Part shown: piece by piece, positions 31,841 to 53,502 of the stretch
Layout: every line of letters begins with the position of its first letter
How positions within the stretch are numbered: the first letter of the stretch is position 1
Origin: Salinisphaeraceae bacterium
GTDB lineage: Bacteria; Pseudomonadota; Gammaproteobacteria; Nevskiales; Salinisphaeraceae
Assembly (NCBI GenBank): GCA_002683405.1
Contig: NYTH01000033.1
Coordinates: 62,001-126,000, forward strand
DNA length: 64,000 nt
Reading direction: 5' to 3'
Made by a program: the position numbers and the translations under genes
The notes under the pieces: generated by a model
The model's input: only the letters and a program-made list of their open reading frames with translations
Told to the model about the DNA's origin: nothing
Databases searched by the model: none

Positions 31841-33073
31841 TCAAGTCAGTGTTTTCAGATCGACCGACGTGTCGGACAACTGATTCTTGTCCGGCGTCGC
31901 GCGCGCTGCAACCAGCTTCTTGCCGGCCATGAAGGATTTCGGGTCGTTGACCGCATCCACCGAAATGACCACGCCATTCTTCAGGTAAAAAATGGCGAAG
32001 CTGTCGTCATCCGGTAGGCCGCGCATGACGCTGTCGTCATGGCCGTCCGACAGACCCACCATCTGCATGCGGATATCGTACTGGTTCGACCAGAACCACG
32101 GCACGGCATCGTAGGCCTTGTCTTCACCACACAGCACGCTGGCGGTGGCGCGGGCCTGGTCGACCGCGTTGGACACGGCCTCCAGCCGCTTGGCATCGCT
32201 GTAGAAAAGATTCTTGTGCCGCGTGCAGTCGCCGATGGCAAAAATGTCCGGGTCGGATGTGCGGGTGAATTCGTCCACGACAATGCCGTCGTCGCAGTCC
32301 AGACCGGCCGCTTCGGCCAGCGCGGTTTCGGGCATGATGCCGATGGAAACCAGCACGGTGGTGGCTTCGAATTTTTCGCCGCTTTCTGTGGTCACGGCGC
32401 TCACGTGGCCGCTGCCATTGTCTTCGAAGCCCGCGACCTTGGCGCCGGTCCGCAGGTCCACACCGGCATCACGATGGCGCTTTTCGAAATAGGCAGATAC
32501 GTCCGGGCCCGTCACCCGCTCCATGACGCGATCCATGGCTTCCAGCACCGTGACATCCACGCCTCGTTTGACCGCGATGGCCGCCACTTCCAGCCCGATG
32601 TAGCCACCGCCGACAATGACCAGCTTGTGACCCTCGATCAGTTCCGGACGCAGCTTCTGCACGTCGGAAATCGTGCGCAGATAGTGGATGCCGTTCAGGT
32701 CCGAGCCGGGCGCCTTGAGCACGCGCATCTGAATACCGGTGGCCAGAACAAGTTTGTCATAGGCCAGGTCGGCGCCATTGGCGAGCTTGAGCGACTTGCT
32801 GTCGCGGTCGATTTTTTCAACTCTGGTATCCAGGGTCAGGTCGATACCGGCCTTGTCGTAGGTTTCCTGCGGCTTGAGGTAGAGCTTGTCGAGATCGATG
32901 TCCCCGGCCAGATAATCCTTGGACAGCGGCGGGCGCTGATAGGGCAGGTACGGCTCGTCGCCCACAATCAACACGCGGCCGGGATATTTCTTCTGGGCCA
33001 GCGTGGTAGCCAGCATGCCGCCGGCATGCCCGGCGCCCACGATGACGGTCGTTTCAGTCTGCTCTTCGGCCAT
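31841..33073 (-). CDS. NAD(P)H-dependent ferredoxin reductase (putidaredoxin/rubredoxin reductase type)
   Basis: 410 residues. It has the FAD fold TVIVGAGHAGGMLATTL, then YQRPPLSKDYL, LATGIQMRVL, the NAD fold VIVGGGYIGLEVAAIA, and FAIGDCTRHKN. The C-terminal domain contains WFWSNQYDIRMQMVGL, as in P450-system ferredoxin reductases. It passes electrons from NAD(P)H to the adjacent 2Fe-2S ferredoxin. Together with CYP153 this completes a class I P450 system. Confidence 0.92.
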   Translation of the reverse strand: MAEEQTETTVIVGAGHAGGMLATTLAQKKYPGRVLIVGDEPYLPYQRPPLSKDYLAGDIDLDKLYLKPQETYDKAGIDLTLDTRVEKIDRDSKSLKLANGADLAYDKLVLATGIQMRVLKAPGSDLNGIHYLRTISDVQKLRPELIEGHKLVIVGGGYIGLEVAAIAVKRGVDVTVLEAMDRVMERVTGPDVSAYFEKRHRDAGVDLRTGAKVAGFEDNGSGHVSAVTTESGEKFEATTVLVSIGIMPETALAEAAGLDCDDGIVVDEFTRTSDPDIFAIGDCTRHKNLFYSDAKRLEAVSNAVDQARATASVLCGEDKAYDAVPWFWSNQYDIRMQMVGLSDGHDDSVMRGLPDDDSFAIFYLKNGVVISVDAVNDPKSFMAGKKLVAARATPDKNQLSDTSVDLKTLT

Positions 33074-33150
33074 TTCTACCCTTCCTCCTGCTCAAAGCAG
33101 CCGGCATGATACCGACTATTGCCGCGACGTGTATTTCGTTGAACGGCCCG

Positions 33151-33831
33151 CTAGCCCTTGTGCCGCATGACCAGCGTGTCGATACCTTCGTCCTTGAGCC
33201 GGCGCAGCATCTTGTTGAGCGTGGCCACGTCGTTCAACGGTCCGCTGCGCACGCGAAAGACGGTCTTGCCGCCCGACAGCTCGACGCGCTCGATATCGGC
33301 CTGCAACCCCAGCAGCGCCAGGCCGGCCTTGCGGCGTTCTGCATCGGCCCGCGAACTGAACGAGCCGGCCTGGATGACGTAACGGCCCGGCTGCTCCACC
33401 TTGGGCATGGTGGTCTGGCTGGCCTGCTGTGCCGGCTTGCTCGCCGTGTCGGGGGAAGACGGCGAGCGCGCCGGCTCGGTGTATTCCTCCTCCGGAATGA
33501 CGACCTCATAGTTCGGCAGCATTTCGTAGAAGGCGAAGCGCGGCTCCTCCTCTTTCGGCGGCGCAGGCGTGGCGGGCGACTCGGCCGCGTCGGGCGCCCC
33601 CAGGGCCGGCATGCCGGCGATTTCGATTTGCGTGCCCGTCGTGCTGGCCGGCCGCGCAAAGATGTAGACGCCGGCCGCAACCACCAGGCCGAGACACAGC
33701 CCGCAGAACAGATACACCCAGCCCGGTACACCCGCCCCGGCCGCAGACTTGCGCGCCGGGCGCGCAGCTGGTTTGCGCCGCGTCTTGGTCTTGCGGTTAT
33801 CCGAGGGGCGGTTTGAGTAATCGCGGGCCAT
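33151..33831 (-). CDS. SPOR-domain membrane protein (FtsN-like)
   Basis: 226 residues. A basic cytoplasmic N-terminus (KTKTRRKPAARPARK) is followed by one TM at about 36-58, a Pro/Glu-rich periplasmic linker and a C-terminal SPOR domain (GRYVIQAGSFSSRADAERRKAGL; FRVRSGPLND). SPOR domains bind denuded peptidoglycan at the division septum. It sits 20 bp downstream of argS, a linkage I recall for ftsN-like genes in pseudomonads. It lacks other hallmarks needed to call it FtsN with certainty. Confidence 0.85.
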   Translation of the reverse strand: MARDYSNRPSDNRKTKTRRKPAARPARKSAAGAGVPGWVYLFCGLCLGLVVAAGVYIFARPASTTGTQIEIAGMPALGAPDAAESPATPAPPKEEEPRFAFYEMLPNYEVVIPEEEYTEPARSPSSPDTASKPAQQASQTTMPKVEQPGRYVIQAGSFSSRADAERRKAGLALLGLQADIERVELSGGKTVFRVRSGPLNDVATLNKMLRRLKDEGIDTLVMRHKG

Positions 33832-33851
33832 TCGACTCCCTGCCAGGCCGG

Positions 33852-35582
33852 CTACATCGATTGCGGTGCGTCAACGCCCAGCAAGTCTAAGCCATTGGCC
33901 AGTGTCTGCCGAGCCGCCAGCGCCAGCGCCAGACGGGCATTGCGCAGCGCGGCGTCGTCCACGATGAACTGGTGGGCGTTGTAAAGGCTATGGAAGGCGT
34001 CGGCCAGATCACGCAGGTAGTGCGCGAGCGTTTGGGGCGCATAGTTCAGCGCCGCGTTCTCCACGATCTCCGGGAATTTCGAGATGAGGGTAATCAGTCG
34101 CTGTTCCTGCTCGGTGTCCAGCCGCGTCAGATCGGCCGCGTCCGGATCGGCCGGCCACTGCTTGTCCCGGGCCTGCTGAGCCACGCTGCACACCCGCGCG
34201 TGGGCATACTGGATGTAGTACACGGGATTCTCGTTGCTGCGCGATTTGGCCAGCTCCAGATCGAAGTCCAGATGCTGATCATTCGAGCGCATGACGTAGA
34301 AATAGCGCGCGGCGTCGGTGCCGACCTCATCGCGCAGCTCCCGCAGCGTGACGTACTGCCCGGCCCGCGTGGACATGGGCAGCCGCTCGGCGCCGCGATA
34401 CAGATTGGCAAACTGCACCAGCTGTACGGCAAGCCGGTCATCGGCGCCGGTCAGCGCCGCGACCGCCGCCCGCACGCGAGGCACGTAGCCATGATGATCG
34501 GCGCCCCAGATATCCACCAGCCGCTCGAAGCCGCGGTCGAGCTTGTTCAGGTGGTAGGCGATATCAGCCGCAAAATAAGTGTGGCTGCCGCTGGCGCGCA
34601 CCAGCACCCGATCCTTTTCGTCGCCAAAACGCGAAGAGGCAAACCAGGTGGCGCCATCCTGTTCATACACATGGCCGGCCTCGCTGAGCCCCTTCAAGGC
34701 GTGCTGCACGGCGCCCTCGGTCACCAGACCACGCTCGGAGAACCAGTGGTCGAACCCCACGCGGAACTGCTCGAGATCGTCGCGAATATCATCGATTTGC
34801 AGGGTCAGAATGATATCCAGCAGGGCCAGGAATTCATCGGCGCCCAGCGCATCCCGCGCACGGGCGATCATGGCGTCTAGCGCCGCATCCGGCGACTCGG
34901 CGTCGGCCTGCGCGGCCAGTACGTCGTCTGCCGCAATGCGCAGGTCATCGCCGCGCTGCGCGCGCAGCGTAGCGGCCGCCTCGATCACGTAGTCGCCCTG
35001 ATAGGCGTTGCCCGGAAAATCGAGCTGTTCGCCGCAGGCTTGCAGATAACGCAGCCAAAGCGACAGCGCCAGAATATCCATCTGCCGGCCGGCATCATTG
35101 ATGTAGTACTCACGCGTCACGTCGAAGCCGGTGAAGGCCAGCAGGCGGGACACGCAATCACCATAGGCCGCACCGCGGCCGTGCCCGACGTGCAGCGGGC
35201 CGGTGGGGTTGGCAGAGACGAACTCGACCATCACCCTCAGACCGGCGCCCTGGCTGCCGCGGCCCCAGTCTGCGCCGGCTTCGAGCACCTGCCGCACCAC
35301 GGCCTGCATTTCCCCCCGCCGCAGAAAGAAATTGATGAAGCCGGGGCCGGCAATTTCGGCCTTTTCGACCAGATCGGAGGCCGGCAGCGAATCGATGATC
35401 ATCTGCGCGAGCTGACGCGGCGGCTGGCCGGCCTGCTTGGCATAGACCATGGCCACGTTGCTCGCGAAATCGCCGTGCGCGGCGTCGCGCGTACGCTCCA
35501 CATGCGGGGCGCGCGAGGTGTCGGCTTCCGGGAGCGCGGCGGTCACGGCGCGCGCAAGCAGTTCCTGCAGTTCAGACTTCAC
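33852..35582 (-). CDS. argS: Arginyl-tRNA synthetase
   Basis: 576 residues. The HIGH-like motif HVGHGRGAAYGD follows VEFVSANPTGPL. The KMSKS position reads MSTRAG, the usual relaxed form in ArgS. The C-terminal anticodon-binding helices include YAHARVCSVAQQA and ALNYAPQTLAHYL, and the N-terminal additional domain has FINFFLRRGEM. Full length. It is followed by the SPOR gene and preceded by priA on the same strand. Confidence 0.96.
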   Translation of the reverse strand: MKSELQELLARAVTAALPEADTSRAPHVERTRDAAHGDFASNVAMVYAKQAGQPPRQLAQMIIDSLPASDLVEKAEIAGPGFINFFLRRGEMQAVVRQVLEAGADWGRGSQGAGLRVMVEFVSANPTGPLHVGHGRGAAYGDCVSRLLAFTGFDVTREYYINDAGRQMDILALSLWLRYLQACGEQLDFPGNAYQGDYVIEAAATLRAQRGDDLRIAADDVLAAQADAESPDAALDAMIARARDALGADEFLALLDIILTLQIDDIRDDLEQFRVGFDHWFSERGLVTEGAVQHALKGLSEAGHVYEQDGATWFASSRFGDEKDRVLVRASGSHTYFAADIAYHLNKLDRGFERLVDIWGADHHGYVPRVRAAVAALTGADDRLAVQLVQFANLYRGAERLPMSTRAGQYVTLRELRDEVGTDAARYFYVMRSNDQHLDFDLELAKSRSNENPVYYIQYAHARVCSVAQQARDKQWPADPDAADLTRLDTEQEQRLITLISKFPEIVENAALNYAPQTLAHYLRDLADAFHSLYNAHQFIVDDAALRNARLALALAARQTLANGLDLLGVDAPQSM

Positions 35583-35685
35583 GAAGAAATTGCCTCTGGG
35601 CCGGTTCCGGGGCGAAAAACGCCGCAGATTGTAGCGATTGGCCGGGGTGCCGGCTAGCGGCGGGGGGCGCGGCCAGCGCGTCCGG

Positions 35686-37890
35686 TCAGGTCAGGTCCTG
35701 CGGATCCACGTCTAGCGCCCAGCGCACCCGCCGGCCTTCGCTCAGGCCATCCACCTCGGGCAACCAGGCCCGCAGGAACCGCTGCAGCTCGGACCGGCTG
35801 TCGGCCCGGAGCAGCAAATGCGCCCGCGTGCGGCCGGCGCGTCGCTCCAGCGGCGCCGGCGCCGGCCCCCACAGCTCGACGCGGAGCCGGCCCTGCGGCA
35901 CAAGCAGACGATCCGCCGCGGTACTGGCCGCCTGAAGGAACGCGTCCGGCGCGCGGGGCTGCCGGGCCTCGGCCTGCAGCAGCGCCAGGCTGCCGAAGGG
36001 CGGCAGGCCGGCCTGTTTCCGCTCCTCGAGCAAGGCCCGGGCGAAACGCCCGTAGCCTTCGGATACCAGCAACTGCAGCAAGGGGTGGCCGGGGTGGTGC
36101 GTCTGGATGATCACCTCGCCCCGACGGCGGTCGCGGCCGGCGCGACCGGCCACCTGCGTCACCAGCTGCGCCATGCGCTCGATGGCCCGGAAATCGGTGG
36201 AGAAAAGCCCGCCATCGGCATTGACCACACCCACCAGCGACAGATCGGGAAAGTCGTGCCCCTTGGCAATCATCTGTGTGCCCACCAGCAGGCGCAGCGC
36301 CTTGCTGCGCACCTGGGTCAGCAGCTGTGCAAGCGCGCCCTTGCGGGCGGTGCTGTCGCGATCGAAGCGTGCCATCGGCACGTCGGGAAACTCGCTGCGC
36401 AGGGCGGCGGCAATGCGTTCTGTCCCCTCACCCAGCGCAATCAGGCTGCGGCTGCCGCAGCGTTCGCATTGCGCGGGGGGCGGACGTTGGGCACCACAGT
36501 GATGACAGCACAGCCGCTGGCCGCCGGCGTGCAGCGTCATGGCGCTGTCGCAGTGGCGGCACGGCATCTGCCAGCCGCAATCGTGGCAGAGCAGCGCCGG
36601 CGCGAAGCCCCGCCGGTTGAGAAACATGAGCACCTGGCCGCCCTGCTCCAGATGCTGCGCCGCCTGCTCCAGCAGCGGTCGCGATAATCCCTCGCGCAGC
36701 GGCCGACTGCGCACATCCAGCAGGCGCACCACGGGTTGGCCGGCGCGGCCCACGCGTTGCGACAGCCGAACATGATGGTAGCGGCCCTGCAGAGCATTGT
36801 TGAGCGTTTCCAGCGACGGGGTGGCCGTGCCCAGGAGGATCGGTACGCCCGCCTGCTGCGCCCGGCGTACCGCCAGATCCCGCGCAGAATAGCGAAAGCC
36901 GTCCTGCTGCTTGAACGAGCCGTCGTGTTCTTCGTCCACGATAATCAGGCCCAGATCGGGCATCGGCGTAAAGATGGCCGATCTCGTACCCAGAATCACG
37001 CGGGCATCGCCCGCGCGCGCGGCAAGCCAGCCGTCGAGCCGCTCCGCATCGGTCAGTCCGGAATGCAGCACCGCGATACTCACGCTCAGCCGTTCGAAGA
37101 AACGATCGACCAGTTGCGGCGTCAGGCCGATTTCCGGCACCAGCACCAGCACCTGGCGGCCCGACTCGACCGCCCGCCGGGCGAGCGCAAGATAGATTTC
37201 GGTCTTGCCGCTGCCCGTCACGCCCTCGAGCAGCGTGGCCGAGAACCCCGCGCCGCCGGGTACGGCGGCCACGGCCTCGCGCTGCGCCTCGGTCAACGCC
37301 GGTCCGTCCGCCCCCCGACCGATGCGCGGCATCCTGGGACGATCACGCGCCTCCACCCAGCCATGCTCGAGCAGGCGTGCCAGCACGCCGGCCAGGCCAT
37401 CGCCGGCTGGCATTTCACCTTGCGCGGTCCAGCCGGGCCGGTCCAGGGCGCGCAGAATGCGCGCCTGACGCGAGGCACGCTGCATGAGCGCATCGGTATC
37501 CAGCTGCGCGCCGGTTGGGGTCAGACGCCAGACGCGTTCCACCCGTCGCGCCGCCGGATGGCCCTGCCTGAGCAGGGCCGGCAAGGCCGTCAGGCAGACA
37601 TCGCCGGCGGGGTGATGGTAGTAACCGCTGGCCCAGCGCAGCAGATTCATCATCGCCTCGGGGATCAATGGCTCGGTATCGATGATGCGGGTCAGCGGCC
37701 TGAGTCGATCAGGCGCGATGCCGGCCCCTGACGACGTACCGTCCACAATCGCCACCACCTTTCGCCTGCCCAGCGGCGCTTCCACCCGCGCGCCGGCCGG
37801 CGCCGGGCCGGCAGCGTGCGGCAGGTAATCCAGCCCCTGCCGAAAAGGGCCGGGCACGAAGACGCGGACAGGGGTTTCATCAGCGGTCAT
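35686..37890 (-). CDS. priA: Primosomal replication protein N' (PriA helicase)
   Basis: 734 residues. The N-terminal 3' DNA-binding domain has FRQGLDYLP. The helicase has LLEGVTGSGKTEIYLAL (Walker A), IIVDEEHDGSFKQQDGFRYSARDLAV (aromatic-rich loop, DEEH), and VAGRAGRDRRRGEVIIQT. The zinc-binding cysteine block is built of CHDCGW, CRHCDSAM, CCHHCGAQ and CERCGS. It restarts stalled forks. The usual priA-argS-SPOR order of gammaproteobacteria is kept. Confidence 0.96.
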   Translation of the reverse strand: MTADETPVRVFVPGPFRQGLDYLPHAAGPAPAGARVEAPLGRRKVVAIVDGTSSGAGIAPDRLRPLTRIIDTEPLIPEAMMNLLRWASGYYHHPAGDVCLTALPALLRQGHPAARRVERVWRLTPTGAQLDTDALMQRASRQARILRALDRPGWTAQGEMPAGDGLAGVLARLLEHGWVEARDRPRMPRIGRGADGPALTEAQREAVAAVPGGAGFSATLLEGVTGSGKTEIYLALARRAVESGRQVLVLVPEIGLTPQLVDRFFERLSVSIAVLHSGLTDAERLDGWLAARAGDARVILGTRSAIFTPMPDLGLIIVDEEHDGSFKQQDGFRYSARDLAVRRAQQAGVPILLGTATPSLETLNNALQGRYHHVRLSQRVGRAGQPVVRLLDVRSRPLREGLSRPLLEQAAQHLEQGGQVLMFLNRRGFAPALLCHDCGWQMPCRHCDSAMTLHAGGQRLCCHHCGAQRPPPAQCERCGSRSLIALGEGTERIAAALRSEFPDVPMARFDRDSTARKGALAQLLTQVRSKALRLLVGTQMIAKGHDFPDLSLVGVVNADGGLFSTDFRAIERMAQLVTQVAGRAGRDRRRGEVIIQTHHPGHPLLQLLVSEGYGRFARALLEERKQAGLPPFGSLALLQAEARQPRAPDAFLQAASTAADRLLVPQGRLRVELWGPAPAPLERRAGRTRAHLLLRADSRSELQRFLRAWLPEVDGLSEGRRVRWALDVDPQDLT

Positions 37891-38345
37891 GGCCGAATTC
37901 TAACCGCCCGGCCTACCGTACCGTCGTCGAGCAGGGCCAGCGGTCCAGCCCCTGTGGATAACTTTGGGGATAGTGCAGCCCGGAAGATCGAACGTCACGC
38001 GGCACAAACGCAGAGATGACGTTTACATGACGCAAAAATAAAAAGAATTATTTTTACAATCAGCTAATTAGAATGTATTAACCACAGCAGGCCGCGTTTG
38101 ACGGTTGACTTGAAGCTGCGCAACATGGCTCAGCGCTGGATGTGAATAACCCTGCCACCGGACGAAAAAACTCGCTGTAAATAGTTATTTATGGCCGTCC
38201 GCCACAATTTTTGCTGCAGCGCATCGCGCGAGGCGACCGGTGGACGGACGGCGTGAACGGAGGGACGACCGCTGGTCGATTCAATGGCATGGCGTCGTCT
38301 GCAGACGGTAAAATATCGAATAATTTTCAACCCGAGTTTTCACTG
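37891..38345. other. 455-bp gene-free region with two DnaA-box-like sites and a hairpin
   Basis: No gene is visible. TGTGGATAA at 37953-37961 is a perfect DnaA-box consensus, and TGTGAATAA at 38141-38149 is a second match to the relaxed consensus. Between them lies an AT-rich stretch (38034-38085) with a perfect inverted repeat AAAAATAA/TTATTTTT (38034-38041, 38048-38055). A 12-bp inverted repeat GCCGTCCGCCAC (38194-38205) pairs with 38240-38252 across one bulged base, about 95 bp before the cyclase-TnpA gene. Promoters for priA (minus) and the downstream gene (plus) must be here. Confidence 0.5.
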
Positions 38346-40067
38346 ATGGCTCATTACAGCGATGAGCCTCCGGGGCACTCTCCCTATGCTCTTCAATTAA
38401 GCCAGGGTTTTCCGTGGCTCAGATTTGAATACTCCCTGGAGGCGAGCTTCCGGGCCTATTACACGGCTCGCTATCTTGCCCGCGCGAGGTTTGTCCTTTC
38501 GCTCGCGATCATCCTCTTCGCCGTATTCGCGTTCTACAACCTGGCGGTGCTCCCCGCCCCGGTCGGCGGCGTGGCGGCGGCGGTGCAACTCGCCTTCATC
38601 TGCCCCTGGCTGCTGGCCGCCTGGGGCATGTCGTACTTCGAGTCGGTGTCACGCGATGTGTCCATGCTGGCCTGGTTTGCCCTGTCGGGTACGGCCATCG
38701 CGCTAATGGGCCTGATCTGGTATTCCACCCACCATCAGGTGGAGTACCCCTACACCGGCCTGGTTCTCATCGTCATCGCCGCCTACTACCTGGCCGGCAT
38801 GACCTTCTGGCACGCGCTCGCCTTCGGCCTGAGCTGCCTTGGCGTGTTTGTGCTCGGCTCCATGGCCGCCGACAGCTCGCCGGTGGAGCTGGTGGGTCCT
38901 GCGCTCTACCTGCTCACCGCCAATATCGTCGGCATGCTGGGCGCCTACACCTACGAGTACAACGAGCGCAGCGGCTATCTGAGCAAGGAAATCCTCGAGG
39001 GTCGCGCCAGTCGCGATGGGCTGACGGGCATCCACAACCGCCGCTACCTGGACGAACAGATCGATCGAATCTGGGCCCAGGCCAAGCGCGACAATGTCCG
39101 CGTGGCGGCCGCGTTCTTCGATGTTGACTACTTCAAGAGCTATAACGACGTGCACGGGCACCTGGGCGGGGATGACTGCCTGCGCAAGGTCGCGCAGTTG
39201 CTCAGCGACAAGGCCCGGCGCCCGCTGGATGTGGTGGTCCGCTACGGCGGCGAGGAATTCCTGGTCATCTGGTACGACGTGGAGCCTGCCGAGATGCTGA
39301 TCGAACTCGCCGAAGGTGTGCGCCGCAGTATCGAGCATGCCCGCATTCCGCACGGCGCGTCCCCGGTGTCCGACTACGTGACGGTCAGCGCCGGCGCGGC
39401 AGCCTGCGTGCCGGACGCCACCCATACGCCGGCGGCCTTTCTCGAGCAGGCCGACAGGCTGCTCTACCAGGCCAAGAGCGCCGGACGAAACCGCGTGATC
39501 TCGCTGCCGCACCTGTCGCAGACGGTGACTGCCCTGGGCAACGCCGTCAACGTGGCGCCCGAGGATTTCAACCGGGAAGACGTCACCGAGATGGAAGCCG
39601 AGCAGCCGCTATCCGCGGAGCAGCGGAATCGCCACGCGGCCTACCGCCGGTCAAAAACGGGCCTGTACCGGCTGCACTACCAGTTCGTGTTTCCCACCCG
39701 GAATCAGCGCCGGCTGCTGGCCGGCGAGGTCGCGCACGGGCTGCGCGCCGCCATACGCGAACTGTGCGATCGCGCCGACATCCATATTCTGCGAGGCCAG
39801 ATCTGCCCGGATCACATCAAGCTGATGCTGAGCGTCCCGCCCGGCCTGTCGCCCGGCGCGGTCATCGACACCATCCGCACCCGCAGCGCCGAGGCGTTGA
39901 TCACCGAATTCGGTCGCACCCACCGCGCCATCGCCAAGGGCGAGATCTGGGAGGAAGGCTATTTCGTGGCCACCATCGGCACGGTGAAGGAAAGCACGAT
40001 TGAACGTTACGTCGAGCATCAGGATCTCAAACCCCGCGACGACGAGTTCAAGATTACGACCGGCTAA
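38346..40067 (+). CDS. Membrane diguanylate cyclase fused to an IS200/IS605 TnpA-like (Y1/REP-transposase) domain
   Basis: 573 residues from ATG 38346 (an earlier in-frame ATG at 38286 is possible). About six TM helices lie at 46-203, like a MASE sensor. GGDEF lies at about 218-385, with active GGEEF at 301-305 and an RPLD inhibitory site at 292-295. An acidic linker follows (EDFNREDVTEMEAEQ). Residues about 436-560 match IS200 TnpA/RAYT: GLYRLHYQFVFPTRNQRRLL, CPDHIKLMLSVPPGLSP, EEGYFVATIGTVKES and TIERYVEHQ. The HUH motif is reduced to His490-Ile-Lys492, while the catalytic-position Tyr555 and Gln559 remain. This suggests a nucleic-acid hairpin-binding domain that has lost metal-dependent cleavage, tied to c-di-GMP synthesis (inference). 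I know of no characterised protein of this build. Confidence 0.85.
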   Translation: MAHYSDEPPGHSPYALQLSQGFPWLRFEYSLEASFRAYYTARYLARARFVLSLAIILFAVFAFYNLAVLPAPVGGVAAAVQLAFICPWLLAAWGMSYFESVSRDVSMLAWFALSGTAIALMGLIWYSTHHQVEYPYTGLVLIVIAAYYLAGMTFWHALAFGLSCLGVFVLGSMAADSSPVELVGPALYLLTANIVGMLGAYTYEYNERSGYLSKEILEGRASRDGLTGIHNRRYLDEQIDRIWAQAKRDNVRVAAAFFDVDYFKSYNDVHGHLGGDDCLRKVAQLLSDKARRPLDVVVRYGGEEFLVIWYDVEPAEMLIELAEGVRRSIEHARIPHGASPVSDYVTVSAGAAACVPDATHTPAAFLEQADRLLYQAKSAGRNRVISLPHLSQTVTALGNAVNVAPEDFNREDVTEMEAEQPLSAEQRNRHAAYRRSKTGLYRLHYQFVFPTRNQRRLLAGEVAHGLRAAIRELCDRADIHILRGQICPDHIKLMLSVPPGLSPGAVIDTIRTRSAEALITEFGRTHRAIAKGEIWEEGYFVATIGTVKESTIERYVEHQDLKPRDDEFKITTG

Positions 40068-40366
40068 GCGGCCCGCGCGGCACGAGCGTACGCGTACTAA
40101 GGCGCTCCGCCCGAGGCCCAGAACAGGGACCCGGCTCGCTGGGGGTGTGACTGCCGGCGGGGGGATTGAGCTGCGAACAAGACTCGCTCAGGCTCGTTCA
40201 TCCCGCCGAGGGTCAACCACGCCTGCCACGCGGCCCAGGTCCGCCTCTGGGGACAACATCCGCTGCGTGACACCTGCAAAGTTCTTCCTCTCTACCCCAC
40301 ATAAATTCGAGACGCCGTAACACCACAAGAACTCGGGTTTCGCGCCCACATGCAATGGGCGAAAAA
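40068..40366. other. Gene-free intergenic region
   Basis: Between the cyclase-TnpA stop and the terminator of the giant minus-strand gene. I see no convincing gene, repeat or RNA. Short GC-rich inverted segments are present but none stands out. Confidence 0.5.
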
Positions 40367-40389
40367 AAGCCCCGGCAGTACCGGGGCTT
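40367..40389 (-). terminator. Rho-independent terminator of the giant surface-protein gene
   Basis: Perfect 9-bp stem (40367-40375 with 40381-40389) and a 5-nt loop. On the minus strand it is followed by a run of T (seven A at 40362-40368 on the plus strand). It lies 24 bp after the stop at 40413. Confidence 0.92.
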
Positions 40390-40412
40390 GAATCGGGCAC
40401 AGAGTTGGCCTA

Positions 40413-43400
40413 TCAGAGGAGAACTTCGCGACGCCGGCGGCGCATCAGGCCACCCACGGCGATGGCAGCCAGCAGCCAGAGCAGCGGGTCCTGCCGCTGG
40501 TTGCTGCTGCCGAGCACACAGCCACCGCCACCACCGCCGCCGCCCAGCGTCGGACCCGGGTTCGGGTTGCCGCCACCAGTAGGCGGTGACGTGACGGCTG
40601 CCGTACCGGGCGCGCCCGGGTCGGTGATGCGACCGTCGGCCATGCCATCGGCATCACCGATGCCGCCATCAATAAGGTTCAGCGCGATCACGTTGCCGTT
40701 GATCTGCGCGCCCTCATTGTCAGCCGCGTCGAACAGGTACTCGAAGGCCACACCATTCTGGAACTTGTAGAAGGTGTTCGGCGTTGAGCCGGCCGGCAAG
40801 GTCAGCGTGACCTGCACGCTGTCACCATTGTTCAGGCCGCTGATGTCGAAGCTGAAGTAGCCATCATCGAAGTCCACGTTGGCCGGCGGGGTAATGCCCA
40901 TCGGCGGCTGAGCGGCGATCATGTAGTTCTCGATCTGCCCGCCGCTGGTGGCAATCTCCACCGGCTGCCCGTCCGGATTGTTCTGCGTATCCGTATCGGT
41001 TGCCGCGTCGGCACGCGTGGTGGAGGTAAAGGTATCCATCACGCCGCCAATGGTCAGCGTCGTATCCGTGGCCGTGGAGGCCGTTGCCGCCGAAGTGTGG
41101 CTCACGCAGACCGTATCCCCCTGCGACACCATGCCCGCCGAGCTGGTGAACATACCCGCCATACAGCCAATCGAGTACTCGCCACCGGTCACCGTGATGC
41201 TCGTGGGCGTGTCGATGCCGGCCACCGTGATTACGTTGGACTGCACCAGCGTGTTGATGGTCACGTCGTTCGTGTCCGTGAACATGAAGGCATCCGGCGT
41301 AATGTCCGGCTCGGCCTCGGGCGCGGTGGTCGTGGTGAACACATCCGACCCGGTGCCGACGGTCAACTCGGAGTTCACCGCCGTATTGGCCATGGCCGCG
41401 GAGGTATGCCGCACGCACACCGTGTCGTTGTTGTCGATGGTCCCGGCCATGCCGGTAAAGCTGTTGATGTCACAGCCAATCGAGTACTCACCCACGTCGA
41501 TCGAGATGGCGGTGCCGTCGTCGATGCCCGTAATGGTGACGGTATTGGACGTGATCGGCGTCGACTGGTCCACGTCAACCTGATCGTTGAACATGAAGCC
41601 ATCCGGCGTGCGATCGCCATCGCGAACCGTGGAACTGAAGTCGCCGGTCACACCGCCAATGGACAGCGTGGTGGTCACCATGCCGCCAAACATCGCGCTG
41701 CTGCTGTGACGCACACAAACCGTTTCGCCGTTGGCAATGGTGCCGGCGGCACTGGTGAAGCCCGGTTCGGCACAGCCGATGGCGTACTCACCGCCGGTTA
41801 CCGTGATCTGCGCGTCGGTATCGATGCCGGCCACGGTAATTGTATTGGACGTCTGAACGGTCATGGGCTCGACATTGTTGACGTCGGCAAACATGAAGGC
41901 GTCCGGCGTCGTGTCACCGGGATCAACCCCATCACCGCCGCCGAAGACCAGGGCGCCGAAGGCGGCGTTGAACTGGCCCACGCTCACCACGCCGCCGTCT
42001 GCGCGCTGTGCGATGGCGAAACTCGACAGGCTGGTGCCCGAGAGTTCGTTGCGGCGGAAAAGACCGCTATCACCAAAGTTGTTATCAATGGAACCGGTCG
42101 AACTCAGGATCGTGTAGAGCAGATCGTTAGAGCCGAAGTTTTCGTTGCCGCCTGCGGCCACCCGGCCGTCCGCCAGCACAATGACGCTGGTGAATGCGCC
42201 CGCAGGTTGATCGAAGCCGGTTAACCCCCCGATTCCGAAGGTGCTGTCCAGTGCGCCAGCAGATGTGACTTTGCCGACGGCGGGTCTGGCAGAAGAATTG
42301 ACCCCGGCAAAGAGAATGTCGTCGCCGACCAGAGCAACCGCGTTGATATCACTCATTCCGGCGACCAGCAACAAACCGTCGCTGTCAAACGCTGTATCCG
42401 GCGTACCGTCCGAGTTGAACCGAACCAGCGACGCGCCCGAGCGATACCGGCCGCCCATGACGATGCGACCCATGCTGTCGATGCGTAGACCACCGCCCTC
42501 GATAGTCTGAGTCTCGCCGGTGCCGATGTTTGCAACACCGTCGGCGAAGAACGCGGCATCACTGCCAAAGTTCGTATCCACGGTACCGTCGGCCAGGAAG
42601 CGCACGGCCCAGAACTGGGTGCCGTTGCTGTCGGTGAGGACGCCGCCGCCTACAATGATTGCGCCCGTGCTGTCGAACTCGGCGCCGCCAACCAGCTCGG
42701 TGCGCCCCGGTTGAGCCGGATTGATGTCGAACTGGACCAGGCCGCCTGTGCCAAACGAGGCGTCGACGCTCCCGTCGGTATTGAAACGGGCCAGGTAGAC
42801 CATGGCGTTGGGCGGGTTGGCTGCGGCTGACGTGCGGCCCACAAGCACATACTTGCCATCCGGCTGAACCAGGATACGGCGGACACTGTTGTTCTGGTTC
42901 GGCATGGTCAGGCTGTTCTTGCCATCCGTGTCGAAACTGGTATCCAGCATGCCGTCACTGGTCATGCGCACGATGCCGATCACGCCTGCCGAAAAGGTAT
43001 TGGGGCCAGCCATGACGATGGAGCCATCCGGCTGCACGATGACCGCTTCGGCGCGGTCGGGTCCGCCCGCAATATCTGCTACGACCAGACCATTGTTACC
43101 GAAGTTGGTGTTGATCTCGTCGTCACCGCCGTTGAAGATCAGGCCGGTCTTGCTGATGAAGTCGGCGCACTTGTCGCCGATGGTCAGGCTGGTGCGGGTT
43201 TCGGTTTCACCCGTGGCAGCTGTGGTATGACGAACGCAGACGGTATCGCCATTGCTGACGGTGCCTTCCATGGTGGTGAAATTGCCGTCGCAACCGATGG
43301 AGTATTCACCGCCTTCCACGGAAATCGGCGCATCCACGCCGTTGGCCAGACCGGACACGACGATGGTGTTGGAGGTGGCCACCACGCCGCCTTCGACATT

Positions 43401-45389
43401 GTCCTGACGCTGGAAAGTGAAGTTATCGGGGAAGACATCGATGTCCGTGGTGCAATCCACGCTATCGCCGGGGGTGCCGGCGCCCAGGATCGCGGTCTGG
43501 AACAGGCCGTCCCCGTCACCATTGCCCACGTAGACCATGTCGTCCTTGACCAGCAGGGACTGGACACGGCCAATACAGACAGAGGAGCGGGGCAGGCCGT
43601 CGGAATCCGGTGTCCAGGTGGCGCCACCGTCGGTGGAGACCGACAGACCGGCGTGTTCATCGCCGAGATAGACGACACCGTCGCCGTCCTCGGCCATGGA
43701 CAAAAGCTCGATACCGAACTTGGAAACCGCATGCCCGGTCGTTGCGGCCCAGGTCTCGCCATTATCAGTGGAGCGATACACGGTATCCCCGCCGGCGCTG
43801 GCGATCAGCGCGCTGGGTGTGGCAAAAATCTTGCCGAAAAAGCTGCCGCTCAGGCCGGAATTCTTGAGTGCCCAGGTGGCGCCGGCGTCGTCGCTGCGAT
43901 ATACGCCTTCGCCGGAAACATAAGCGAACACCGACCCGCCGGAAACGGCGAGGTTGCGGACGGCGTCATTGGCAAACGGGCCGCTGACATCGGCCCAGGT
44001 CGCCCCCCCATCGGTCGACTTGTACACGCCGCGATTGGCGCTGGCGATGGGCACGGCAACGTAGAAACTGCTGCCGTCGCTGACGATGCTGTCGGTTGAT
44101 GCACCGGCGGGCAGGCCGGTCACACCCGCAAACGTGGCGCCATCGTCCGTGGACCGGAAGAAACCGGTGATCTGGGTAGAGAAGGTGTTGATGCCGTCCG
44201 TAGCCAGCAATACGGTGGTGCCATCGCGCAGCACGCTGCGTACGCGGCGCAGGTCCGGCAGGCCCGGTTGTGCAAACGTGGCGCCGCCATCGTCGGTGGT
44301 GAAGTAACCGCCGCCCAGAACGCCCAGGCCGATATCGCCGGTGTCGCCGCGATCCACCAGGCCATAAATACCTGAGGCAGCCGGGCCGCCTGCCTTGGTC
44401 CACATGCCGGAACTGTTGGCGTAAATGCCGCCGCCGCGAGTGCCGGCGACGATGTTCGCGCCTACACCCAGCATCGCATCCACGCCCACGCCGGTGTTGG
44501 CGGGCAGCTGGCCGTTGTTGTCGGAGGCGAAGTTGACGCCGTTGTCCGTGCTGACAACTATTTTGCCGGAATCACGGCCGGCATAAATGTTGCGATCACT
44601 GTCCACGGCCAGGCTTTCTACCCTTTCCCCGGTTTCATTGAAGCCATTTTGACTTCGGTTGAACGTTCTGACGCAGTTGTCGCTGCTGACACGCAGCCCG
44701 CCCGATCCCCGGCCTATGTAGGTCTGTGATCCGTCGGGTGACGTGGCAATCAGATCGAACCCGCTACCCACTCCGTTAGAAGCCCAGGTCGCGCCGTTAT
44801 CCGTGGACACGCGGCCACCGACATTGTTCACAAGCGCACAGAGGTTGGGGCCGACGACGCGGAACACATTGGGTCCGCCATCTTCGGGGGTGATGTCCGT
44901 CCAGGCGGCGCTGTCGGTGGGGCTGCGATACAGACGGGGTGAACCGTCCATAAAGGTAGTGGCGTACACGAAACCGTTGGCCGAATCGAAGGCCTCGGGT
45001 ACGGGTGTATTCTTCAGCCCCGGCAGCGCGCCATCGTCCGTGCCGTTGAAGTCCGCCCAGGTCGCACCGCTGTCGCTGGACTTGAGAACGCCGTCGCCAC
45101 TCAGCGCGAACAGGATGCCCCCATCGGCAACCACACTGAAAAGACCGGGAATCATGTTGTTGCCGGCGGGCGCCCAGGTTGCGCCGGAATCTGCGCTTCT
45201 GAATACCCGAGTACCCGCCACCGTATAAAGCGTGCCGTTGGTGTCGGCGTCTATGCGCTGTATGCCGGCGCTGTCCGGGCTTTGCGGTCCGGTAAATTGC
45301 AGCGCATGCGCGCCGCCCAGGCAGAGAAATCCACCCACTGCCGCCAGAGCCCACCGGCCGAGTACGCCCATTTCGCGATTCCGCATCAT
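40413..45389 (-). CDS. Giant exported mosaic protein: Asp-box repeats, Delta-60 repeats, Cys-paired repeats, C-terminal sorting tag
   Basis: About 1,658 residues. The signal peptide begins MMRNREMGVLGRWALAAVGG. Next come about ten Asp-box repeats of the S-x-D-x-G-x-T-W kind (RSADSGATWA, KSSDSGATWA, STDGGATWTP), as in sialidase/YCF48 propellers. Then come about six Delta-60 repeats (DGSVDASFGTGG, DGTVDTNFGSD). Four copies of a roughly 90-aa unit follow the pattern PDAFMF...SNTITVAGID...GGEYSIGC...GDTVCVRHTSAA...LTIG: one before the Delta-60 block and three after it. Each has two Cys that could pair. A choice-of-anchor U-like domain precedes GGGGGGCVLGSS, DPLLWLLAAIAVGGLM and a run of Arg, a C-terminal protein-sorting tag of the GlyGly/JDVT-CTERM kind. 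The start ATG at 45389 was chosen for the signal peptide. Likely cell-surface or secreted; function unknown. Confidence 0.82.
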   Translation of the reverse strand: MMRNREMGVLGRWALAAVGGFLCLGGAHALQFTGPQSPDSAGIQRIDADTNGTLYTVAGTRVFRSADSGATWAPAGNNMIPGLFSVVADGGILFALSGDGVLKSSDSGATWADFNGTDDGALPGLKNTPVPEAFDSANGFVYATTFMDGSPRLYRSPTDSAAWTDITPEDGGPNVFRVVGPNLCALVNNVGGRVSTDNGATWASNGVGSGFDLIATSPDGSQTYIGRGSGGLRVSSDNCVRTFNRSQNGFNETGERVESLAVDSDRNIYAGRDSGKIVVSTDNGVNFASDNNGQLPANTGVGVDAMLGVGANIVAGTRGGGIYANSSGMWTKAGGPAASGIYGLVDRGDTGDIGLGVLGGGYFTTDDGGATFAQPGLPDLRRVRSVLRDGTTVLLATDGINTFSTQITGFFRSTDDGATFAGVTGLPAGASTDSIVSDGSSFYVAVPIASANRGVYKSTDGGATWADVSGPFANDAVRNLAVSGGSVFAYVSGEGVYRSDDAGATWALKNSGLSGSFFGKIFATPSALIASAGGDTVYRSTDNGETWAATTGHAVSKFGIELLSMAEDGDGVVYLGDEHAGLSVSTDGGATWTPDSDGLPRSSVCIGRVQSLLVKDDMVYVGNGDGDGLFQTAILGAGTPGDSVDCTTDIDVFPDNFTFQRQDNVEGGVVATSNTIVVSGLANGVDAPISVEGGEYSIGCDGNFTTMEGTVSNGDTVCVRHTTAATGETETRTSLTIGDKCADFISKTGLIFNGGDDEINTNFGNNGLVVADIAGGPDRAEAVIVQPDGSIVMAGPNTFSAGVIGIVRMTSDGMLDTSFDTDGKNSLTMPNQNNSVRRILVQPDGKYVLVGRTSAAANPPNAMVYLARFNTDGSVDASFGTGGLVQFDINPAQPGRTELVGGAEFDSTGAIIVGGGVLTDSNGTQFWAVRFLADGTVDTNFGSDAAFFADGVANIGTGETQTIEGGGLRIDSMGRIVMGGRYRSGASLVRFNSDGTPDTAFDSDGLLLVAGMSDINAVALVGDDILFAGVNSSARPAVGKVTSAGALDSTFGIGGLTGFDQPAGAFTSVIVLADGRVAAGGNENFGSNDLLYTILSSTGSIDNNFGDSGLFRRNELSGTSLSSFAIAQRADGGVVSVGQFNAAFGALVFGGGDGVDPGDTTPDAFMFADVNNVEPMTVQTSNTITVAGIDTDAQITVTGGEYAIGCAEPGFTSAAGTIANGETVCVRHSSSAMFGGMVTTTLSIGGVTGDFSSTVRDGDRTPDGFMFNDQVDVDQSTPITSNTVTITGIDDGTAISIDVGEYSIGCDINSFTGMAGTIDNNDTVCVRHTSAAMANTAVNSELTVGTGSDVFTTTTAPEAEPDITPDAFMFTDTNDVTINTLVQSNVITVAGIDTPTSITVTGGEYSIGCMAGMFTSSAGMVSQGDTVCVSHTSAATASTATDTTLTIGGVMDTFTSTTRADAATDTDTQNNPDGQPVEIATSGGQIENYMIAAQPPMGITPPANVDFDDGYFSFDISGLNNGDSVQVTLTLPAGSTPNTFYKFQNGVAFEYLFDAADNEGAQINGNVIALNLIDGGIGDADGMADGRITDPGAPGTAAVTSPPTGGGNPNPGPTLGGGGGGGGCVLGSSNQRQDPLLWLLAAIAVGGLMRRRRREVLL

Positions 45390-46013
45390 TCTTTCCCCAC
45401 CCAACGTTGTTCGATCCGGTATTCCCGGCAGCAAGTTGCGGAAGGTAGAAAGAGCGCCTGTGGCCGGACAGCCCCCATTTAGGGGGGCTGTCGAATTCCA
45501 GTGCGGCGAAACATTACCGATCTGACAGATAGCCCATGCCCGGCTAGCCATTTCGCATTACCCGGAATCGACCAGCGAAACTGGCCGCCCTGCATTTTTG
45601 GCAGTGAAATGCGGATCTAGCCACCCAGTTGCGCGCCGCGCACGCATTGATGGTGTCGACAGCCGGGCCTATCGGCGCACGTCGAGATTCGCGGTGACTA
45701 CCTTGGTTCGACGCGCACGGCCAAAGCGCTGCTAGTGATGGGTGACAGGCACTTTTGCAGGCGGATAGGCAGGATGCCCCGGCGGTATGCGCTCGCCCCA
45801 CGCGGCTTCGGTTCAGTTCTGGCTTAGGCTGAAGCTGTTACCCATCCCGCTGATTTCCCGGTTCAATCGCTTATGCGCGTTCCACTCACCGCTCTCACCC
45901 CGCTTCTGACCACCGGCAACGCAGCGTCGACGAGCTGAGCGACCGCCGGCACCCCGGGCCATGACGCGCCCCTGTGCCGGCCACCCTCAAAAGCTGCGGG
46001 ACGCCGAAGACAA
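45390..46013. other. Gene-free region upstream of the giant gene
   Basis: About 620 bp without a supportable gene. It holds the promoter and 5' leader of the minus-strand giant gene. A motif GGGTGACAGGCACTTTT at 45740-45756 resembles a sequence I recall as recurrent in proteobacterial intergenic DNA, but only one copy is in this window. Confidence 0.4.
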
Positions 46014-52810: not shown

Positions 52811-53502
52811 AAGCATTTCGCCGCTGCTTCGCAGCTGATGTCGCCCCGAGAGGCGGAGCGGGGCCCCACCGTAGGTGGGGTGCGACCCTCGGCGGGGCGA
52901 ACGAGCCCGAGTGTAAAATTCTCCGGGCTCTTCCGCCCGCCGGCGGTCGCATCCCCAGCAAGCTGGGGCCCCTGCTCTGCGCCTCGGGCGGAGACTGACT
53001 TTTTGGATAAGCCTCAAAAAAAGTCACCAAAAAAGGGCTGCCCGACGTACTCGCTCCTCATCGAAGCGCTGCTTCGACGAGGAGTCCCCTGCGCGCCTGC
53101 GTAAAGCGAGGGTCCGCTCGGGCGGCATCCTGCCGCTTCGAGCGGATTGCGGCCATCCCTGGCCGCAACCCTTCGGGCCGGGAACCTCGCTTTACTCCGG
53201 TGCTCGGCGAGTCCGAGGGCGATTCAAGAGACGATCAATCCCGCCTCCTGCTCTTGAACCGCCGTCTGAGTTGCCGTGCGGGCTGGGTGCCGCAGGGTCA
53301 AAAGTACAGGGATGTACTTTTGAGGCCCGCCTCGCAGGATGCGAGTCGGGCCGACCCGTCCGCGGTACGCAGCCCGCTCGGGGACCCGATTATCCGCATC
53401 GCGGATAATCGGGCAACGAGGCCGGACCCGCCTTTTTTGGTTCCTTTTTTGGCGGAGCAAAAAAGGGACTCGCATCAGCTGCGCAGTAGCGGCGAAATGC
53501 TT
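52811..53502. mobile_element. 692-bp gene-free element with 30-bp terminal inverted repeats
   Basis: The left end 52811-52840 (AAGCATTTCGCCGCT...) and the right end 53473-53502 are inverted copies matching at 28 of 30 positions. The inside is packed with smaller inverted repeats, for example GATTATCCGC/GCGGATAATC near 53388-53411, AAAGTAC/GTACTTTT near 53303-53321 and GCGGCCA/TGGCCGC near 53150-53167. It also has two A-rich/T-rich arms that pair at long range (CCAAAAAAGG near 53028 with CCTTTTTTGG near 53431). No credible protein is encoded and no clear target duplication is seen. It fits a non-autonomous (MITE-like) element or a large structured RNA. The rest of the 934-bp gap (52743-53676) shows nothing else except a partial REP-like unit at 52742-52780. 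Confidence 0.6.

Follow-up and report, generated by a model that had tools for sequence, protein, structure and literature searches.

Can a transposase become part of a signalling enzyme in bacteria? The question is raised by one gene in a 64,000-nucleotide stretch of DNA from a Salinisphaeraceae bacterium (the window), whose frame encodes a membrane diguanylate cyclase with an IS200/IS605 TnpA domain at its C-terminus. An earlier note, made from the letters of the sequence, had read the tail as a domesticated TnpA/RAYT domain that recognises DNA or RNA hairpins and connects them to c-di-GMP synthesis. Here, we ask what the tail is, in which state it has been retained, whether other genomes share it, and which role it may have.

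Results

A membrane cyclase and a TnpA domain in one open frame

The frame at 38346–40067 (+) runs unbroken through 573 codons. Its ATG at 38346 is a plausible start, similarity to most homologous cyclases beginning at residues 10–14, and an upstream TTG at 38211 is an alternative start that would extend the frame. In the probable membrane part (38469–38945, residues about 42–200), the Kyte-Doolittle profile shows hydrophobic peaks that number five by an automatic cut and six by eye, the latter in agreement with the six transmembrane helices noted earlier. No Pfam sensor family matched residues 1–220 at E up to 5. The GGDEF domain that follows (39006–39494, residues 221–383) is complete, with PF00990 matched at 2.3e-43 over profile positions 1–161 of 161 and with 148.2 bits against a cut-off of 23.8. 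A motif scan found both the GGEEF active-site motif (39246–39260, residues 301–305) and, five residues ahead of it, the RxxD motif of the inhibitory site (39219–39230, R292–D295), as the earlier note had it. As judged by domain criteria, i.e. a complete GGDEF domain with GG[DE]EF, the protein is a predicted diguanylate cyclase.

A linker of 44 residues (389–432; 39510–39641), which is missing from the homologous cyclases that we read and has no Pfam match, leads into a full-length IS200/IS605 TnpA domain (residues 433–573; 39642–40064) recognised by Pfam, NCBIfam, alignment, an AlphaFold model and a fold search. The peptides from which resemblance to the Y1 transposase had been claimed, FVFPTRNQRRLL, CPDHIKLMLSVPPGLSP, EEGYFVATIGTV and RYVEHQ, are all present in this part. 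Chance matches are excluded by the E-values together with the fold match. At the level of sequence the cyclase–TnpA fusion is real, and the claim of both proteins in one frame is borne out.

Convergent to the fusion gene lies a frame of 1712 aa (40413–45551, −) with repeated blocks. Its C-terminal end is glycine-rich, hydrophobic and arginine-rich and, judged by eye, resembles sorting signals.

The tail is an IS200/IS605 TnpA by descent

To which branch of the Y1 transposases does the tail belong? Pfam Y1_Tnp covers residues 441–559 (4.9e-25), and NF033573, the NCBIfam model of IS200 TnpA, matches residues 433–558 over the full model, scoring 99.5 bits against a cut-off of 55. With the RAYT model NF047646 the score is 26.9 bits, below the cut-off of 80, and these profile results rule out the RAYT identity that the earlier note had offered as an alternative label. 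Solved TnpA proteins were matched by the fusion sequence alone, the best being 2ec2 (5e-20).

The AlphaFold model of the TnpA part, built with 41 aligned sequences including the query, has a mean pLDDT of 80.1 and a pTM of 0.71; its core lies above 90 and both ends below 50, and the helix bearing Tyr555 is less confident, with blocks at 75 and 61. In a Foldseek search with this model (9.7e-13 to solved TnpA) the best 29 matches were all IS200/IS605-type transposase chains, the next being the RAYT structure 4er8. VIA-align superposed the model on 2f4f with Z 18.2 and 1.5 A over 113 residues; Z ranged from 16.5 to 18.2 for 15 solved TnpA entries and was 9.1 for 4er8. Structure prediction, which had been proposed as a check, thus yielded the TnpA fold, and the tail is an IS200/IS605 TnpA by descent with the TnpA fold in the predicted model.

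Loss of conserved transposase residues in the TnpA domain

Is the tail still active? In a reference of 17 close standalone TnpAs, 33 columns are conserved at 90% or more; the fusion differs at 16 of these and each of the 17 relatives at 0–4. Three of the 16 changes are Lys to Arg and one is Val to Leu. Part of this excess reflects distance, because the fusion is 33% identical to the nearest of the 17, whereas none of the 17 is less than 52% identical to its own nearest neighbour. Compared with a wider, more mixed set of 40 TnpAs, the fusion differs at 6 of 17 conserved columns (H446Q, K452R, Y453N, R454Q, H492K and K511R) and the worst relative at 3 of 15.

Motifs were scored in 57 relatives, made up of 8 from other genomes and 49 of 80 viral-contig TnpA loci, 40 of which entered the alignment of the wider set (A3). 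The other 31 viral-contig loci were left out by eye as look-alike, truncated or distant, and one locus (L045), read on the wrong strand, was likewise left out of the comparison. Of the 57, 55 keep H-u-H, 54 a T-K-Y-R type motif, 55 K-[GSAN]-x-[ST]-[SA] and 56 Y-u-x-x-[QH], which is lacking from a single, truncated sequence. Only the last of these four motifs is kept in the fusion. Its HUH is broken to H490-I491-K492 (39813–39821), T-K-Y-R and K-[GSAN]-x-[ST]-[SA] are altered, and Tyr555 to Gln559 (40008–40022), at the sites of the IS608 TnpA nucleophile and metal-ligand Gln, are retained. This confirms the pattern described earlier, a broken HUH with the Tyr and a nearby Gln in place. Two standalone TnpAs, L046 (1501–1911, HVP) and L163 (2001–2378, DYAH), have a broken HUH without being fused.

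In IS608 TnpA (PMC5934647), D61, H64 and H66 coordinate the metal together with Q131 from the partner chain, and Y127 acts as nucleophile. With numbering transferred by alignment, H66 becomes K492, H490 is present, and Y127 and Q131 correspond to Y555 and Q559. H492K would thus remove one metal ligand of an IS608-type site. From the loss of HUH and of other conserved residues, cleavage by this domain appears very unlikely, and we infer that it is gone. It is all but certain that the domain no longer works as a transposase; an active enzyme was rejected on H492K and the lost conserved columns, and domestication, as proposed earlier, is the more likely reading. For element ends, folding of two stretches gave a DNA z of −1.39 (39520–39642) and +2.19 (40068–40150).

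The tail is an addition to the cyclase

Where does the cyclase end in its relatives? The nearest cyclases are 33–40% identical to the fusion over residues about 10–390, with matches reaching residue 396. All 14 homologous cyclases read (11 loci, L183, L185 and the own-genome paralogue L008) end at most about 20 residues past the GRN-type motif that closes GGDEF, and the tail is therefore an addition. Two candidates for further fusions, whose matches seemed to extend into the tail as far as residue 501 (G500) and residue 431 (G579) and in both cases contained a stop, were ruled out on close reading: the cyclases stop at GRNQVVA after 397 and 398 aa, and the remainder is the next gene read out of frame.

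The TnpA part of the fusion extends from the usual TnpA start region through the usual end, and its last residues, D-D-E-F-K-I, are common to the standalone TnpA L101 and nearly so in L102. GC3 is 0.82–0.86 in every part of the fusion gene, and the TnpA part has a codon score of 0.774, 130-codon pieces of priA and argS ranging from 0.61 to 0.81. The TnpA part does not stand out from the remainder of the gene in codon use or GC3.

The fusion is seen in one genome

Is the fusion shared by other bacteria? We searched overlapping genome samples, each counting the own genome: 61 genomes, 17 of the family, 85 of the order, 369 of the class and 398 of the phylum. IS200 TnpA searches, in which the best 10–11 candidates per genome were scored, revealed no second GGDEF–TnpA fusion in the class or phylum samples. 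Matches, own genome included, occurred in 69 of the 369 class genomes (E 1e-8) and 57 of the 398 phylum genomes (E 1e-15), and the others listed all lie in frames of 242 aa or less. A search with the whole protein over the 85 order and 398 phylum genomes, with the best 3 candidates per genome scored in the phylum, returned cyclases without a TnpA tail. Across the 61 genomes (own plus 60 relatives), one other match to the TnpA part came up, a standalone TnpA in G010, and a family search with PF01797 (17 genomes, frame sizes only) gave matches in frames up to 362 aa. Apart from the fusion, nothing in this genome matches IS200 TnpA at E 1e-8. It contains two further Y1 genes, judged RAYT-like by eye, whose HVH and HLH motifs are intact and which lie on contigs other than that of the fusion (L002, 1177–1917, −; L003, 1471–1980, +).

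Scans of genome contigs depend on short near-exact peptides and would show only close relatives; with the TnpA part they gave 90 pattern-matching stretches, none confirmed, and with the whole protein 34 relatives, of which 33 matched through the cyclase alone and one (L100) through the TnpA part alone. Viral contigs gave no match to the single fusion query, and a search with the TnpA alignment left 80 of 98 TnpA loci. By tblastn, no fusion was seen among the plasmid matches listed (40 of 1558, of which 37 are annotated as transposase and 3 lack annotation) or the phage matches listed (20 of 58). A long open frame was judged insufficient as proof of fusion, five viral-contig TnpAs lying in frames of 254–573 aa in which Pfam finds Y1_Tnp only. 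Within the samples searched, no homologue shares the GGDEF–TnpA fusion, which counts against the earlier reading.

Retention or decay of the tail

Has the tail been kept for use, or did a TnpA frame join the cyclase by chance, lose transposition and persist as a tolerated, functionless tail in slow decay? Consistent with decay, a single genome among those searched carries the fusion, half of the conserved TnpA columns are gone, and two of the 57 standalone relatives likewise have a broken HUH. Many IS200 matches in class and phylum genomes are partial or stop-bearing, and IS200 copies tend to decay according to Quentin et al. 2018 (PMC6006769). Against it, despite heavy divergence the frame contains no stop or frameshift, 25 of 26 TnpA core columns are still hydrophobic, and the core of the predicted fold is confident.

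How often would neutral decay leave such a tail? We mutated relatives randomly until 16 of the 33 conserved columns were lost (3000 runs). The mean was 3.9 stops; 2.1% of runs had no stop, 7.4% kept a hydrophobic residue in 25 or all of the 26 core columns, and 0.37% did both, a joint figure from substitutions without indels, which would lower it. When the mutation bias and the number of columns to be lost were varied (six settings, 1500 runs per setting), the simulation gave 1.3–9.8% without a stop, 2.0–9.1% with the core kept and 0.13–1.3% with both. Both sets of runs assume that transposition had already ceased when the columns changed, and are biased by the choice of the gene as an open frame; part of the tail divergence may predate the fusion. 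Each of the two signs alone is weak. Probably the TnpA fold was kept while catalysis was lost, and decay of a useless tail, the best of the rival explanations, seems to us rather unlikely; with the fusion seen in one genome, and a sister sequence for dN/dS looked for and not found, selection on the fold is presumed.

Hairpins, repeats and nucleic-acid binding

Could the dead TnpA domain instead act as a sensor, binding a DNA or RNA hairpin or a single strand and thereby altering cyclase activity? PMC5934647 describes TnpA as a fold that binds hairpins, and a sensor would be expected to arise from it by giving up cleavage while still binding. The fusion retains Tyr555 and Gln559 together with the fold, and its count of Lys and Arg residues (22) falls among those of the relatives (19–24); loss of basic residues was rejected as proof against DNA binding, given this count and the three Lys-to-Arg changes. 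Against sensing, the T-K-Y-R and K-G motifs are altered, Glu537 replaces a conserved Arg, and the net charge of +4 lies towards the low end of the +2 to +11 of the relatives.

Do hairpins near the gene point to a ligand? The imperfect hairpin upstream (38194–38252, +) is modest, with a DNA z of −2.23 and 5 of 200 shuffles as good, and counts against a sensor as a single-copy element, matched in the own genome by only two weak 25–35-bp pieces. A dispersed, intergenic, near-palindromic long-hairpin repeat of ~165 bp, for its part, has a copy 38 bp past the fusion stop (40105–40267, +), which would favour sensing, and a second copy in the window (52830–52993, −); with short flanks their RNA MFE is −94 and −121 kcal/mol, respectively. 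The own genome holds 24 matching pieces (E up to 0.001), ten of at least 77 bases, and copies occur in 5 of 16 other family genomes, the long ones 70–76% identical. One of these five (G010) has the standalone TnpA only and the other four have no TnpA match; the repeat also recurs elsewhere without tnpA. Since repeat-bearing relatives were found without the fusion, the repeat does not track it, which argues against the repeat as ligand of a sensor. As for REP flanking, there is one long-hairpin repeat, on the downstream side only and of a kind present at other loci. A 25–30-bp piece from the outer end of the repeat (query 156–186) recurs alone at many places, e.g. at 53473–53502, and several such pieces lie near contig ends. 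Rfam gave no family at threshold within 33000–46000.

Hairpin recognition, as the earlier note proposed it, is therefore not supported by the altered motifs and the single-copy hairpin, and no link between nucleic acid and c-di-GMP was found. We consider a nucleic-acid sensor of any kind unlikely. The specific version, in which single-stranded or hairpin DNA, from stalled forks near the membrane or from dispersed repeats, would bind the TnpA dimer and switch c-di-GMP synthesis, is more doubtful again.

Internal start and assembly artefact

Two products from one frame are highly improbable: an internal start near Met416 (39591), within the linker and 17 residues ahead of the TnpA domain, could also yield a separate TnpA-like protein, but ribosomes making the cyclase must read through, with no stop between the parts, and by eye no strong ribosome-binding site precedes 39591. 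An assembly or sequencing artefact that joined two neighbouring genes can be dismissed almost entirely, for although the fusion occurs in one assembly only, it lies inside a 205-kb contig with even codon use across the join, the genome offers no second IS200 TnpA at E 1e-8, and a live IS copy put in the wrong place would not show the divergence at conserved sites that the TnpA part has.

Discussion

What could a dead transposase do for a cyclase? The TnpA dimer of the IS200/IS605 family has a swapped helix. GGDEF enzymes act as dimers as well, and two GGDEF domains face to face are needed to form c-di-GMP. According to PMC7290912, IS200/IS605 TnpA is obligatorily dimeric, with a hairpin bound by each monomer; its active site is assembled in trans (PMC5934647). 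Given an obligatory TnpA dimer and dimeric GGDEF enzymes, the simplest use of a dead TnpA with its fold kept would be as a dimerising accessory module.

As we read the gene, a membrane diguanylate cyclase captured a complete IS200/IS605 TnpA frame at its C-terminus; transposase activity very probably died, and the fold was probably kept under selection because it may help the cyclase, either by dimerising at the C-terminal end or as an accessory part. A tail prone to dimerise could increase or adjust the activity of the cyclase, with the six-helix membrane part as the input. This explanation, whose dimer role is borrowed from the family, is put forward tentatively, and we rank it ahead of useless decay, which in turn precedes hairpin sensing.

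If the tail serves the cyclase, the gene would be a bacterial instance of a signalling enzyme that gained a transposase domain through in-frame fusion, which is better known from eukaryotes. It would then also offer a natural way to ask whether a fold that forms dimers is by itself enough to tune a diguanylate cyclase, and whether nucleic acid can feed into c-di-GMP signalling. Coming from one genome, the case carries limited general weight unless sister strains or a further instance are found. In the open-licence literature, we found no report of a GGDEF or diguanylate cyclase protein fused to Y1_Tnp, a RAYT or an IS200 transposase. Long TnpA proteins are known but were set aside in Quentin et al. 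2018 (PMC6006769), and GGDEF is not mentioned in the available text of that study.

How does the fusion compare with known systems? With the membrane GGDEF cyclases of about 390–480 aa (L008, L038, L181, L183 and others) it shares a hydrophobic N-terminal part followed by GGDEF; these proteins end soon after GGDEF, whereas the fusion adds about 180 residues. With TnpA of IS200/IS605 elements (Y1 HUH enzymes such as those of IS608 and ISDra2; TnpA-Y1 subclass 1.1 of Quentin et al. 2018), the tail shares the predicted fold, full length, the profile match and Y-u-x-x-Q. Unlike them, it has H-u-K for H-u-H, has lost T-K-Y-R, is joined to a cyclase, and occurs as a single copy in its genome with no tnpB beside it. 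RAYT or TnpA-REP proteins (4er8) have a more distant Y1 fold in common with the tail (Z 9.1); REP-associated subclasses carry a Y motif ending in NP, according to PMC6006769, whereas the tail carries Y-u-x-x-Q. Primate CSB-PGBD3 and SETMAR are eukaryotic and involve other transposase classes, SETMAR reportedly retaining its ancestral DNA binding; in both, as in the fusion described here, a host gene is joined to a captured transposase.
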